Virus record (IMG/VR): IMGVR_UViG_3300026116_000073
Span: 1 to 33,899 of that record
Length of the DNA stretch: 33,899 nucleotides
Source: a virus
Direction: 5' to 3' (one strand)
Each line of letters starts with the position of its first letter. The stretch's first letter is position 1. Below, one piece after another: positions 1,858 to 15,805 of this stretch. The notes under the pieces are model-generated. The model was not told the DNA's origin. It saw only the letters and a list, made by a program, of their open reading frames with translations, and did not search any database. Position numbers and translations under genes: made by a program.

Positions 1858-3092
1858 TGCCGCTCCCGACCATCACCATCTCGCTCGGCGTCCCGACCGG
1901 GTGGATTCTCGGAGATTCGGTCGAGTCGATCCTCGGCACCAGCACGTTCCTCGTCTCGACGTCCCTCGAGCAGCTCACCGGAGTCCGCGGGTTCAAGATC
2001 AGTCGAGGACGGCAGCACGAGCTTGACCGGGTAGAGGCTGGCAAGGCGTCCGTGCGGTTCGCGAACCGGGACGGGACCTACACCCCGGAGAACGCGAGCA
2101 GCCCGCTGTTCCCGTTCCTTCGACCGATGGCGCCGCTGTCGATCCAGGCGACGTACAACGCCGTCACATACGACCTGTTCAGCGGGTTCCTCGAGGCGAT
2201 GCCGCAGACGTGGACCCGGGGACCGGCTGGCGACGCCGCCGTCGAGGTGCGCGCGGTCGATGCGTTCAAGGTGTTCAACCTTGCGAAGGTCACCGTCACC
2301 CGCGGCGTCGAGGGCGCCGGAGCGCGTATCACCGCGCTGCTCGACGCGATCGGCTGGCCCGCGAGCCTGCGGGCGATAGACGACGGCGACTCTGATGTTC
2401 AGGCCGTCACGCTCACGAACACCACCATCCTGTCGCACTTGCAGGAGGTGGCCGCGAGCGAGGGTGGGGTGCTGTTCGTCTCGGGCAGCGGTGTGGTGAC
2501 GTTCTTCGATCGTCTGCACACGGTCCTACTCGACGAGGCCAACGACACCTGGGGCGATGTGATCGGCGAGAAGCCTTACGAAGACCTCGACACCGACTAC
2601 GACGACGAGACGCTGTGGAACGAGGTCACCGTGACGGCGCCGGGGCTTGCCGATCAGACGGTGGCAGATGTGGCGAGTCAGGCGATATTCAGCGGCCCAG
2701 CGGGGGTGTCGGCGCCACGGTCGCTGTCGGTGAGCACGCTGCTGACGACCACTGGGGCGATGCTCGAGCGCGCCGAGTTCCTCCTGTCGCGGTACTCGAT
2801 ACCCCAGACCCGGGTCAAGTCGATAACGCTCGACACCCGCGCCGACGCGGCGTCGGTGCCGCGCATCCTGATGCGCGAGATTCACGACCGCATCGCCGCT
2901 CGTAAGCGTCCGCCGAACGGCGGGCTGATCGACCAGCCCTCGGTCGTTGAGGGGATGCATTGGGAGTACGCCGCGTCGAGATACCTGCGGGCGGTGTGGG
3001 CGTTGTCGTCCACGTCGTACCAGCAGGGCCAATGGGAGCTCGGGACCGTTGGAAAGTCCGAGCTCGGCGTCACCACATCACTCGTCGGCTAA
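1857..3092 (+). CDS. Minor tail protein (distal tail / tip type)
   Basis: 411 residues, GTG start overlapping the TAG stop of the tape measure gene. The N-terminal part has the pattern of actinophage minor tail proteins that follow the tape measure: a 'SRGRQHELDRVEAGKASVRF' segment near residues 50-70, then 'NRDGTYTPENASSPLFPFLRP', then a 'LFSGFLEAMPQTW' segment. In this family the region forms a beta-rich ring domain at the tail tip. The rest is beta-rich without a catalytic motif I can name. It probably builds the baseplate or tail tip and contacts the following tail proteins. The family assignment is by pattern recall and synteny; a structural comparison would be needed to name the fold. 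Confidence 0.75.
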   Translation: MPLPTITISLGVPTGWILGDSVESILGTSTFLVSTSLEQLTGVRGFKISRGRQHELDRVEAGKASVRFANRDGTYTPENASSPLFPFLRPMAPLSIQATYNAVTYDLFSGFLEAMPQTWTRGPAGDAAVEVRAVDAFKVFNLAKVTVTRGVEGAGARITALLDAIGWPASLRAIDDGDSDVQAVTLTNTTILSHLQEVAASEGGVLFVSGSGVVTFFDRLHTVLLDEANDTWGDVIGEKPYEDLDTDYDDETLWNEVTVTAPGLADQTVADVASQAIFSGPAGVSAPRSLSVSTLLTTTGAMLERAEFLLSRYSIPQTRVKSITLDTRADAASVPRILMREIHDRIAARKRPPNGGLIDQPSVVEGMHWEYAASRYLRAVWALSSTSYQQGQWELGTVGKSELGVTTSLVG

Positions 3093-12189: not shown

Positions 12190-12617
12190 GCGATCAGGCC
12201 GCGATGTTCCCCGAGACCGTCGGGACGCGGGTGTGGTGCATCGACTGCCGCGCCGAGCACCCTCTCGGTGAGCACCGCCGGAACCTGGACGAGCTCGAGC
12301 GGGAATCCCACAAGCGAACGGCCGAGGCGATCCAGCGCGTCGACGATCACGCCGACGAGGAGTGGAAGCGAGCCGCCGACGACGCGATCGTCTACGTAGC
12401 CCGACGGGCTGCGACCTTCACGGCTGACGATGTGTGGTGGCGGCTCGACGAGCTTGAGATCGCGTCACCACGGGAGCCGCGAGCTCTCGGCGCCCGGATG
12501 CAGGCGGCGGCCCGGTCGGGCATCGCGACGAACACGCAGCGCGTCGTGAAGTCCCGACGGCCCGAGACGCATGGGTCATGGGTCGCAGAGTGGGCGTCGA
12601 ACCTAGCGGGTATGTGA
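12186..12617 (+). CDS. Conserved actinophage-type hypothetical protein (wHTH-like)
   Basis: 143 residues; GTG overlaps the previous stop. The N-terminus has a CIDC pair (residues 18-21). The centre ('ARRAATFTADDVWWRLDELE') and the following 'GARMQAAARSGIATNTQRVV' look like the winged-helix replication-region proteins seen in many actinophages, with a recognition-helix-like segment and a basic 'KSRRPETHGSWVAEW' tail. It shares its last base with the start of the initiator gene. Its role is probably in replication or its control; this is inference from neighbours. Confidence 0.6.
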   Translation: MSDQAAMFPETVGTRVWCIDCRAEHPLGEHRRNLDELERESHKRTAEAIQRVDDHADEEWKRAADDAIVYVARRAATFTADDVWWRLDELEIASPREPRALGARMQAAARSGIATNTQRVVKSRRPETHGSWVAEWASNLAGM

Positions 12618-13405
12618 TGGGCTGGCTCAAGCTCGACGACGCGTTCGGCGATCACCCGAAGGTCGTCGGCCTGTCCGATCGAGCGTTCCGCGCGCACGTT
12701 CTCGGGATGGTCTACTGCGCCCGCTACCTCACCGACGGTCACGTACCGCGGGCCGTGGGTCCGAAACCCTCGATCGCCAAAGAGCTCGAGCGCGCCGGGC
12801 TGTGGACGTCGATGCGCGGCGGCTGGCAGATTCACGACTGGCTCGATTGGAACCCCTCGAGGGCCGAGACTGAGGCCGAGCGTGAGCGGTGGCGCGAGCA
12901 GCGCGTCGGTGCGGGCAAGGCTCGAGCAGCGAGCGCCCAGCGAGCCGCTGGTCGGTTCGCACCAGCGGATTCACCAGCGGGCGACCAGCGAGATACCAGC
13001 GAGCCGCTGGCGTTGCCGCTGGTGGACGCCACCAGCCCCGTACCCGTACCCGTACCTAAAGAACAAACCCTTGCGACGGGCAAGCCGCCGCGACCGAGAG
13101 ATGAGCTGTTCGAGGCCCTCGCCGAAGTCGAGAACGCAGACCTCGACGCCCTCACCCGATCCGCCCGAGGCAAGCTCAACGACGCGACGAAGCAACTGCG
13201 CGACATCGGTGCCACGCCCCAGGACGTCGCGGTCCGGGCGAGAACGTACCGCCGGGTTCACCCAACCTGGGACCTCACGGCGCAGGCGCTCGTGAAGCAC
13301 TGGCCGTCGCTGAATGGGGCAGCGCCGGTCGACCGCTACACGCCATCGCGCTCGGTCGACGACATGACCGACGAGGAGATCGAGGAGCTGACGCGCCGTG
13401 ACTGA
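12617..13405 (+). CDS. Replication initiator / replisome organizer-like protein
   Basis: 262 residues; ATG shares a base with the previous stop. The N-terminal 80 residues ('MGWLKLDDAFGDHPKVVGLS', 'RYLTDGHVP', 'GGWQIHDWLDWNPSRAE') match the winged-helix domain of phage replisome-organizer proteins. Residues about 85-160 are a charged, Ala/Pro-rich linker that includes a Val-Pro repeat, and residues 160-262 form a C-terminal helical domain, likely for helicase loading. These proteins open the phage origin and recruit the host helicase. Short DNA repeats at helical spacing lie inside the linker-coding part (see the repeat at 12937), as in lambda O. No helicase or polymerase gene is present, so the phage must use the host replisome. 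Confidence 0.75.
   Translation: MGWLKLDDAFGDHPKVVGLSDRAFRAHVLGMVYCARYLTDGHVPRAVGPKPSIAKELERAGLWTSMRGGWQIHDWLDWNPSRAETEAERERWREQRVGAGKARAASAQRAAGRFAPADSPAGDQRDTSEPLALPLVDATSPVPVPVPKEQTLATGKPPRPRDELFEALAEVENADLDALTRSARGKLNDATKQLRDIGATPQDVAVRARTYRRVHPTWDLTAQALVKHWPSLNGAAPVDRYTPSRSVDDMTDEEIEELTRRD
12937..13057 (+). repeat. Iteron-like direct and inverted repeats, candidate origin
   Basis: Five direct copies of CCAGCGRR start at 12937, 12962, 12974, 12985 and 12996, the last four 11-12 bases apart, about one helical turn. Three inverted copies (CCGCTGG) start at 12945, 13004 and 13016. Then CCCGTA is repeated three times (13037-13054), followed by an A-rich stretch (CCTAAAGAACAAACCC). The 11-base spacing does not keep the reading frame, so the repeats are not a protein-level repeat. 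The layout inside an initiator gene resembles the lambda origin. Confidence 0.55.
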
Positions 13406-13688: not shown

Positions 13689-13858
13689 CCCCCGTCGTCG
13701 CTCCACGTCGTCGTGAACGTGAGCCGGGCCGTCCGGCGCAGCCGAAGCACCCCGTCACCGGCACCGCCGACGACGTGGCCGCGCTGTACCGCGCGATGGC
13801 CGGGGCGTGCAGGGACATCGCCGACGAGCTCCGCGCCGAGCAACGGGGGCAACGGTGA
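13685..13858 (+). CDS. Small basic hypothetical protein, 57 residues
   Basis: GTG overlaps the previous stop and the stop overlaps the next GTG. The N-terminal half is a basic, Pro-rich disordered segment (VAPRRREREPGRPAQPKHPV); the C-terminal half is one helix (DVAALYRAMAGACRDIADEL). No family recognised; support comes from coupling on both sides. Confidence 0.5.
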   Translation: MTPVVAPRRREREPGRPAQPKHPVTGTADDVAALYRAMAGACRDIADELRAEQRGQR

Positions 13859-14028
13859 ACGCGGTGTGGATCGTCGCCGGGATCGAGGTCTTCCTGGTCG
13901 TCGTCATCGGGGTCGCCCTGGCCGCGGCCGATGCGCTCGAGGATTTCTTCGGCGCGCTCCTCGCGTTCAACCTGCTCATCGGGGGAATCGCGGCGGGCGC
14001 GTGGCTGGTCTCGAGGGGTCTGTCGTGA
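13855..14028 (+). CDS. Small two-span membrane protein, 57 residues
   Basis: GTG overlaps the previous stop. Two hydrophobic helices (WIVAGIEVFLVVVIGVALAA, residues 5-24, and 34-52) are joined by a short acidic turn (DALEDFF). It overlaps the RusA gene by 4 bases. A membrane protein between replication genes is unexpected; it may act in superinfection exclusion or membrane anchoring of replication, but the sequence does not show which. Confidence 0.55.
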   Translation: MNAVWIVAGIEVFLVVVIGVALAAADALEDFFGALLAFNLLIGGIAAGAWLVSRGLS

Positions 14029-14429
14029 GGTCGCTGACGTTCCAAGTCTTTGGCGACCCGGTCCCCCAGGGATCGAAGCGCGCGTTCGTCGTGAAGAACC
14101 GCGCCGTCGTCGTCGACGACAACAAGGCAACGCTGCGGTCGTGGCGGTCGCAGATCGTCGACGCCGCTCGCGCCGAGCTGAACGGCGAGGGTCCCGAGCT
14201 CGGCCCGGTTCGGATCACGCTCATGTTCTTCCTGCGACGGCCGCAGCGGCCGAAGGCTGGCGTACCGATCGTGAAGCCCGACGTCGACAAGCTGGCCCGC
14301 GCGGTGCTCGACGGGATGACCGACGCCGGGGTGTTCCGCGACGATTCGCAGGTGACGACGTTGACCGCGCGCAAGCGGTACACGACCGAGGCGCCCTGCG
14401 TGCGCGTGTTCGTGGATCAGGACGCATGA
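14025..14429 (+). CDS. rusA: RusA-family Holliday junction resolvase
   Basis: 134 residues; GTG overlaps the previous stop. RusA cuts four-way DNA junctions made during recombination and replication. The active-site pattern is clear: 'KPDVDKL' (Asp86, Asp88) and 'FRDDSQV' (Asp107), with the 19-residue distance Asp88-Asp107 matching Asp72-Asp91 of E. coli RusA. The N-terminal 'FGDPVPQGSKR' is also typical. It is the last gene of the recombination and replication block and is followed by an 80-base gap with no gene. Confidence 0.92.
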   Translation: MRSLTFQVFGDPVPQGSKRAFVVKNRAVVVDDNKATLRSWRSQIVDAARAELNGEGPELGPVRITLMFFLRRPQRPKAGVPIVKPDVDKLARAVLDGMTDAGVFRDDSQVTTLTARKRYTTEAPCVRVFVDQDA

Positions 14430-15014: not shown

Positions 15015-15275
15015 GTGCTGAAACGAGTGCAGGTGCACGGGTTCATTGAGATTCAGGAGGGCGCCGAGCTGCCCGAGCTCGGTCAGATCGTGAGCGTGTC
15101 GGAGGCGCGGTTCGAGGTCACGGGCGAGCTCAAGGAAAAGCAAGCCCGGCGCGGCGACGCCGTCGAGCTCGTCTTCACGCGGAAGACCAAGCTGCTCGAG
15201 GGGGCGCAGATTCTCAAAGTCGAGGACGCGCCCGAGCCGCTGTTCGAGGGCGACGGCGAAGCGGCCGAGGCGTGA
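15015..15275 (+). CDS. Hypothetical acidic protein
   Basis: 86 residues; GTG start 7 bases after GGGAGG. A beta-rich protein ('VQVHGFIEIQEGAELPELGQ', 'GDAVELVFTRKTKLLEG') with an acidic tail. It overlaps the proteasome-like hydrolase gene by 4 bases, so the two are translationally coupled and may work together, for example as substrate or adaptor. No family is recognised. Confidence 0.6.
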   Translation: MLKRVQVHGFIEIQEGAELPELGQIVSVSEARFEVTGELKEKQARRGDAVELVFTRKTKLLEGAQILKVEDAPEPLFEGDGEAAEA

Positions 15276-15805
15276 CCTGCATCGTCGGGCTCGTCGATGA
15301 CGGCGACGTTTACATCGGCGGGGACTCGGCCGGGGTGAGCAACTCCTGGCTGAGTCTCCACGCCAATCGCAAGGTGTTCACGAACGGCCCCTACGTCGTG
15401 GGCTTCACGTCGTCGTTTCGGATGGGGCAGCTCCTACGCTACGCGCTCAAGCCGCCGCCCCCGCCCGAGCGAGGTCTCGACCGTTTCATGGTGACGACGT
15501 TCGTCGATGCCGTGCGGCGGTGCCTCAAGGATGGCGGCCTGGCGAAGAAAGAGAACGAGGTTGAGACCGGGGGCGCCTTCCTCGTTGGCGTATCGGGTCG
15601 GCTGTTCGCGGTTTATGGCGACTATCAGGTCACTGAGGAGGTCGGGTCCTACGATGCCGTCGGGTCCGGCGCGTCGATCGCGCTCGGTGCGATGTACGCG
15701 ACCGAGGGGCTTCTGCCGCGTGATCGACTCCGGCTCGCGCTGGGTGCAGCCGAGCGGTTTAGCACCTACGTCCGCCGCCCGTTCACGATTCGGAAGGGGC
15801 CATGA
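15272..15805 (+). CDS. Proteasome beta / HslV-like Ntn hydrolase
   Basis: 177 residues; GTG overlaps the previous stop. After removal of Met the protein begins with Thr ('TCIVGLVDDGDVYIGGDSAG'). Counting that Thr as residue 1, Asp17 ('GGDSAG') and Lys33 ('ANRKVF') fall exactly where the proteasome beta and HslV catalytic residues lie, and 'GSGASIALGAMYA' at about 130-142 matches the conserved GSG segment. These enzymes form ring-shaped ATP-dependent proteases using the N-terminal Thr. There is no propeptide and no HslU/ATPase partner in the window, so it may use a host ATPase or act alone. The coupled 86-residue acidic protein before it is a possible partner. The Ntn-hydrolase fold is likely; its substrate is unknown. 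Confidence 0.78.
   Translation: MTCIVGLVDDGDVYIGGDSAGVSNSWLSLHANRKVFTNGPYVVGFTSSFRMGQLLRYALKPPPPPERGLDRFMVTTFVDAVRRCLKDGGLAKKENEVETGGAFLVGVSGRLFAVYGDYQVTEEVGSYDAVGSGASIALGAMYATEGLLPRDRLRLALGAAERFSTYVRRPFTIRKGP

Follow-up and report, generated by a model that had tools for sequence, protein, structure and literature searches.

The closest known designs to the locus studied here are the origin in gene O of bacteriophage lambda and the RepA_N origin of the plasmid pSK41. In lambda and the Stx phages the origin lies inside gene O (PMC7466680), and in pSK41 the protein can do without the linker that the origin encodes (PMC5703833). The lambda iterons are imperfect inverted repeats of ~19 bp with an A/T-rich opening tract, and pSK41 has four Rep boxes and no C-rich tandem array as described in PMC5703833. 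At bacterial oriC, opening is directed by DnaA-trios, trinucleotide units bound by the AAA+ protein DnaA (PMC6669920). Finally, the RepA-like initiators of mycobacteriophages Miko and Jeeves suffice for autonomous replication, the origin being placed by the authors in or beside repA with no repeats identified (PMC7157519).

We analyzed a viral DNA stretch of 33,899 nucleotides (IMG/VR record IMGVR_UViG_3300026116_000073, hereafter the window), for which an original prediction had proposed a lambda-type phage origin made of helically spaced repeats inside an initiator gene and bound by the N-terminal winged helix of the gene product. As judged from sequence comparison, the element is very probably the phage replication origin, located inside the linker of its own initiator gene; this part of the prediction is well supported by the identity of the initiator, by a repeat lattice kept in relatives and by copies of the element outside the coding region. 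The likeness to lambda is also well supported, with repeats within the initiator gene and an adjacent A/T-rich tract: as at the lambda O origin, iterons in the middle of the gene precede a putative opening tract, with initiator binding suggested here by covariation. Unlike lambda, the locus has half-sites of 5 to 6 bp on an 11- to 12-bp lattice and a G+C-rich tandem array between the half-sites and the A/T-rich DNA, and no sequence kinship of the window initiator to lambda O was seen. The locus resembles pSK41 RepA_N in the central position of the probable origin in the initiator gene, the winged-helix N-domain, a central linker that this origin would encode and that would be dispensable as protein, the variable C-domain, and DnaD-like elements; unlike in RepA_N, the reading part appears to be a helix past the winged helix, and there is no Pfam RepA_N match. 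Like DnaA boxes and DnaA-trios (PMC6669920), double-stranded sites adjoin a short tandem motif on one strand, but the units here are of 5 to 6 nt and mostly G+C-rich; the likeness, which covers position, period, and strand bias, is an analogy only. The replisome organisers of Firmicutes phages (PF09681, PF07261) give weak matches in some relatives and none in the window protein. The Miko and Jeeves proteins differ in being of 320 to 350 aa and of a plasmid RepA type.

The initiator and its domains

12617-13405, + strand: replication initiator gene, 262 aa (PHROG 2447 and PHROG 3926 profile matches)
12617-12856, + strand: winged-helix domain, codons 1-80 (AlphaFold2 pLDDT 91-98; conserved family-wide)
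12860-12955, + strand: long basic helix, codons 82-113 (ERERWREQRVGAGKARAASAQR; CCAGC class; AlphaFold2 model)

Profile searches with the window protein matched PHROG 2447 (E 2.8e-28, residues 1-161) and PHROG 3926, "replication initiation protein" (E 1e-23, residues 1-169), and on these profile matches its identity as a phage replication initiator is confirmed. Relatives occur in 155 phage records, where they are frequently annotated as RepA-like replication initiator or replication initiation protein. The AlphaFold2 model comprises a confident winged helix (1-80) and one long helix (82-113), the remainder being poorly predicted. Comparison of the winged helix by VIA-align gave Z scores of 5.5 to 6.0 for RepA_N N-domains (4pql, 4pta, 4pt7, 5kbj), tied with unrelated winged helices, and of 4.9 for the DnaD N-domain; for the model, this supports a winged-helix fold and assigns no particular family. 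Foldseek with the whole initiator model returned no match at E <= 0.001, a sequence search of solved structures with the initiator gave nothing meaningful, and no AAA+ domain was seen in the initiator.

The window protein matched no Pfam family up to E 1, RepA_N (PF06970) and PF09681 included, and RepA_N was not listed for any of 86 relatives. Weak PF09681 matches were found in five relatives (best E 0.0025), single relatives matched DnaB_2 (1e-4) and TIGR01446 DnaD_dom (4e-6), and six matched DnaT. These weak matches of a few relatives would fit a distant common origin, the window protein itself being no member of those families.

In Microbacterium phage Dropshot, the genes of a helicase loader and a DnaB-like helicase lie directly 3' of the initiator gene. 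In the window, the next PHROG-named gene past the initiator encodes a RusA-like Holliday junction resolvase (13713-14429, two genes past the initiator; PHROG 140, E 5e-24), and a gene of the peptidase HslV family (15272-15805; PHROG 1040, E 6e-23) follows soon past the replication genes.

Half-sites, array, and A-rich DNA in the window

12937-13036, unstranded: iteron lattice of nine CCAGC half-sites, six forward and three reverse (sequence inspection)
13036-13056, + strand: C-rich tandem array CCCCGTACCCGTACCCGTACC, (CCCGTA)3, directly 3' of the last half-site (family statistics)
13057-13074, + strand: A-rich stretch, candidate opening site (18-mer from 13057 with 61% A+T, 99.7th percentile of the window)
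13070-13090, unstranded: weak stem CTTGC-GACGG-GCAAG (stem 5, shuffle P 0.14)

All repeats listed in the original prediction are present, namely, the CCAGCGRR 8-mers at 12937, 12962, 12974, 12985, and 12996, the inverted 8-mers at 12945, 13004, and 13016, and the three CCCGTA units at 13036-13056 with an A-rich stretch from 13057. Taken as CCAGC half-sites, they stand at 12937, 12962, 12974, 12985, 12996, and 13032 in forward orientation and at 12947, 13006, and 13018 in reverse orientation; the one at 13032, a ninth half-site beyond those predicted, runs into the C-rich array. Two perfect palindromes CCAGCG-AGC-CGCTGG are formed at 12937-12951 and 12996-13010. The pattern CCAGCGR-N3-6-CCAGCG has four matches in the whole window, every one in the initiator linker, versus 0.06 expected, and the linker is the densest CCAGCG cluster of the entire 33.9 kb. 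Under synonymous-codon permutation of the linker (20,000 rounds, protein and codon usage preserved), the eight CCAGCG sites observed compare with a mean of 2.46 (P = 5e-5), and the frequency of the most-repeated 6-mer was reached at P = 1e-4. The claim that it is the DNA rather than the protein that is repeated is thus borne out by a codon-controlled excess, and also by elements lying beyond the stop codon in relatives with short genes.

The original prediction had listed three CCCGTA units after the half-sites. Their presence stood, with the correction that they are one copy of a C-rich tandem array found across the family and one of its main conserved parts. Taken singly, (CCCGTA)3 of the window gene is unremarkable (P = 0.28 for the C-run chain in codon permutation), and it is comparison with the relatives, not the window gene alone, that gives it its significance. 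The array keeps the A-rich tract apart from the iterons, and the most A-rich 18-mer at the locus starts at 13050 (99.9th percentile of the window). No significant palindrome follows the window array (shuffle P 0.14); the weak stem at 13070-13090 lies ~18 nt beyond the point where the C runs of the array end, close to the position at which relatives frequently have a long palindrome. The window locus thus has the half-site cluster, a short array, and the A-rich part.

One layout in phages of many actinobacterial genera

The comparison drew on about 200 relatives, collected from IMG/VR, GTDB genomes, phages, and plasmids. Most have, at the same position of the gene, a cluster of half-sites in both orientations, a tandem array, and A/T-rich DNA that is often palindromic, and this layout recurs in phages and prophages of at least ten actinobacterial genera, with hosts including Mycobacterium, Gordonia, Microbacterium, Arthrobacter, Propionibacterium, Streptomyces, Nocardia, Nonomuraea, Bifidobacterium, and others. 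Repeats exceeded synonymous permutation at P < 0.05 in 38 of 87 loci, where ~4 were expected, and fell short of P = 0.05 singly in the other 49; the combined P over the 87 loci, which as related loci are not independent, is ~3e-31. Among plasmid records, three distant relatives only were found, one with a C-rich array, one with a CAGAGA array, and one without an obvious array.

The half-site motif varies by lineage (CCAGC, GTCAC, GTTCG, AAGCA, GTTAC, GTTTC, and others). With the window left out, the six motif classes gave 272 same-orientation half-site pairs within 45 bp; 107 of them are 11 to 12 bp apart, and 244 are at 11 to 12, 22 to 24, 33 to 36, or 44 to 45 bp. Among relatives sharing the CCAGC motif (L012, L013, L014, and L046), steps are mostly of 10 to 12 bp, while the linker residues and even the orientation of the sites vary. 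The comparison suggested with the original prediction, of repeat spacing against codons in related phages, therefore came out in its favor: the 11- to 12-bp lattice stays, and the codons, even the motif, differ.

The array shows a strand bias. Chains of at least four CCC at 5- to 6-nt steps were found on the coding strand of 60 of 132 linkers, versus 4 of 1,053 control tiles drawn from the relatives' own loci, and on the noncoding strand of none of the 132; chains of at least five CCC occurred in 42 of 132 linkers versus none of the controls. Many loci without a CCC chain have (CAGAATA)n, (CAGATA)n, (CCAGA)n, (CCACT)n, or (CAGAGA)n instead, and at least three array units were present in 43 of 44 nonredundant loci of a held-out set. 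The unit measures 5 nt in 386 of 484 cases. The last half-site begins 8 to 11 nt 5' of the array in 42 of 77 loci. Past the array, the first 15 nt have an A+T content of 0.577 versus 0.361 locus-wide (n = 110). Perfect stems of 7 bp or more were found in the 45 nt that follow at 34 of 87 loci, as compared with 4 of 85 at 100 nt further.

Copies of the element beyond the stop codon

In several lineages the initiator has 106 to 146 aa, stopping once both the winged helix and the long helix are complete. The array lies 3' of the initiator stop codon there, in most cases together with half-sites; selection therefore acts on the nucleic acid. Since these short initiators are without a C-terminal domain, this domain cannot read the array in them, and the reading frames that follow mostly encode no split-off C-terminal domain. 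The clearest case is Propionibacterium phage B22 (L009), where the initiator ends at 2866, the next annotated gene begins at 3056, and the gap between them holds GTAAGCAA-type repeats, CCCCGTACCCGTACCCGTACCCGTA, and TATAT. Further extragenic cases are a Nocardioides prophage (L110) and loci L057, L065, L066, L071, L083, L084, L086, and L213. In a prophage of Nonomuraea soli (L129), which is probably decaying, the initiator frame seems broken past 64 codons, and the element persists.

Proposed working of the origin

The initiator, the lattice, the array with its strand bias and register, the A/T-rich DNA, and the covariation described below are each supported by the sequences compared. From these we infer origin activity along the following lines. 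Protomers of the initiator would dock on the half-sites, one per 11 to 12 bp, and the basic helix past the winged helix would bind and read the half-site directly, which we propose as the reason why the half-site differs between lineages and the lattice is constant. The row of protomers would end about one lattice step before the C-rich tandem array of 5- to 6-nt units, which may guide strand opening or the loading of helicase or primase; the A/T-rich, often palindromic, DNA past the array would melt, and the replicative helicase would be brought in by the C-terminal region of the initiator or by a neighboring helicase loader. The array could provide single-strand sites comparable to DnaA-trios, be a loading or priming site for host proteins, or be an RNA-level element. 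Its kind is constant across half-site classes and C-terminal domains, which suggests a common reader family-wide.

An effect in RNA of the array and palindrome (Rho-type, pausing, terminator, or an antisense G-rich primer or R-loop site), beside DNA-bound iterons, is rather unlikely. On the mRNA strand the array is, like Rho sites, rich in C and poor in G, with palindromes coming after it, and the opposite strand would yield a G-rich transcript. However, CAGAATA and CAGATA arrays occupy the same place, so that C-richness is not universal, the array holds a preferred distance from the half-sites, which are DNA, and no T run was seen past the palindromes on inspection by eye.

For the window and for the complete relatives Dropshot and B22, cumulative GC skew, proposed as a check of the predicted origin, showed no extreme at the element. 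It was dropped as a locator; we judge this test to be of low power because nearly all genes there are on one strand. A literature search found no published experiment on the replication of any family member.

Half-site identity follows a basic helix

The original prediction had assigned the reading of the repeats to the winged helix. To weigh this, a half-site class was assigned from the DNA of each locus, and the protein columns were ranked by their information on the class. Mutual information was highest at columns 92-107 (96, 95, 92, 102, and neighbors), in the helix past the winged helix, and the columns of the recognition helix and wing were no more informative than the remaining ones. 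The assignment was redone with DNA downstream of the helix codons only, because the first version could take in DNA encoding the helix. With relatives of >40% identity excluded, nearest-neighbor prediction from residues 84-106 was right in 53% of cases (chance 15%), and from residues 1-80 in 12% versus the same chance level. Half-site identity therefore covaries with the basic helix (~84-106), not with residues 1-80, and the assignment to the winged helix needed correction; half-site specificity through its recognition helix was rejected as unsupported by the column information and by the prediction from residues 1-80. That the winged helix, and not the helix that follows, reads the half-sites is unlikely on these figures, even though RepA_N initiators bind Rep boxes by a winged helix (PMC5703833), which the modeled fold resembles at scores tied with unrelated winged helices. 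Although probably not the sequence reader, the winged helix may contact DNA as well.

The pairings follow simple patterns of helix residues, as listed below.

..ERM...R pairs with GTTCG half-sites
ERQ or ERK..R pairs with GTCAC half-sites
ERL..(Y/F)R pairs with GTTTC half-sites
R(V/Q/K)..WR pairs with GTTAC half-sites
AG(R/K).GG pairs with AAGCA half-sites
(A/G)GK(A/S)RA pairs with CCAGC half-sites, the class of the window

This rule was frozen as code ahead of a second set of 80 loci. Of these, 44 were nonredundant and new, and for 17 of the 44 a class could be both predicted from the helix and called from the DNA. Prediction and call matched in 15 of the 17; the half-site classes came from the first relatives compared, the held-out loci came from a related query, and none of the 17 was a CCAGC case, the class of the window resting on five members of the first set. 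In 5,000 shuffles, agreement averaged 4.8 and reached at most 12; the shuffles leave shared ancestry in, an effect lessened by the cut at 40% identity and by the use of new loci. This covariation between helix and half-site is the best evidence, at the level of sequence, that the initiator itself may bind the half-sites.

In mycobacteriophage Murphy (L217), the winged helix is kept without the basic helix, the half-sites, or the array. The joint lack of helix and element fits the proposed coupling between the two, and possession of the winged helix does not in general entail the design of half-sites and array.

Other readings, novelty, and significance

The formation of a G-quadruplex or i-motif by the array at the origin is decidedly unlikely. 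The complementary strand, with (GGGTC)n or (GGGTAC)n, fits the quadruplex pattern in many members, but CCAGA, CCACT, CAGATA, and CAGAATA arrays are incapable of three-layer quadruplexes and yet occupy the same place; a quadruplex was thus rejected as the shared property of the array, being not general. It is very improbable that the half-sites are an operator only, through which the initiator represses its own operon while replication starts elsewhere. Initiators commonly autoregulate, and our data give a coupling in sequence between initiator and sites rather than origin activity; against this, the sites lie ~300 to 420 bp into the gene or behind it rather than at a promoter, and have the array and A/T-rich DNA at a set position downstream. 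Almost no credence is left for repeats that arise as a side effect of a proline/alanine-rich linker or through replication slippage, with any selection acting on the protein, since although the linker is of low complexity and (CCCGTA)n codes for PVPVP, the repeats exceed synonymous permutation, their periods of 11 and 5 nt are no multiples of 3, and the elements 3' of the stop codon in short-gene relatives already contradict it.

Returning to the origin in the initiator gene, we tentatively suggest, as a possibility somewhat short of an even chance, a large and widespread class of actinobacteriophage origins in which the mostly G+C-rich array would be a strand-specific opening or loading element with a reader shared by the family, be it a replication protein of the host or the conserved winged helix, and in which the separate basic helix would read lineage-specific half-sites by a simple residue code. 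Our literature search, in which subscription journals were thinly covered, turned up neither an account of the C-rich array or of the helix code nor a paper on such an origin for actinophages of this family, and a string search of papers with array sequences gave unrelated papers only. The G+C-rich array and the helix code thus look new. If true, the origins of many sequenced actinophages could be read straight from sequence, a few residues of one helix could serve to predict which coresident phages are incompatible, and the rule of origin melting at A/T-rich DNA could be put to the test with an opening element that is G+C-rich. The elements would also be compact candidate replicons for actinobacterial plasmids.

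Related repeats in other viral sequences

In viral contigs, (CCCGA)4 has the initiator signature upstream at 87 of 120 loci. (CCCGTA)3 was rejected as a stand-alone diagnostic, a scan of viral contigs giving mostly unrelated long repeat tracts. Many viral contigs (L342 to L421) carry long minisatellite-like tracts of CCCGTACCC, CCCGTCCC, or CCCGGACCC that are unrelated to the initiator. On the reverse strand of L237, at ~6488, GTTCG half-sites, (CCCGA)n, and a palindrome occur with no initiator signature in the preceding 750 bp. Mycobacteriophage KanikaMF1 (L216) has an unusual array of 12-nt units, (CCATTACCAACA)3, in place of the C-rich array (gene nt ~555 to 590), which is preceded by GGAGTCC-type repeats.
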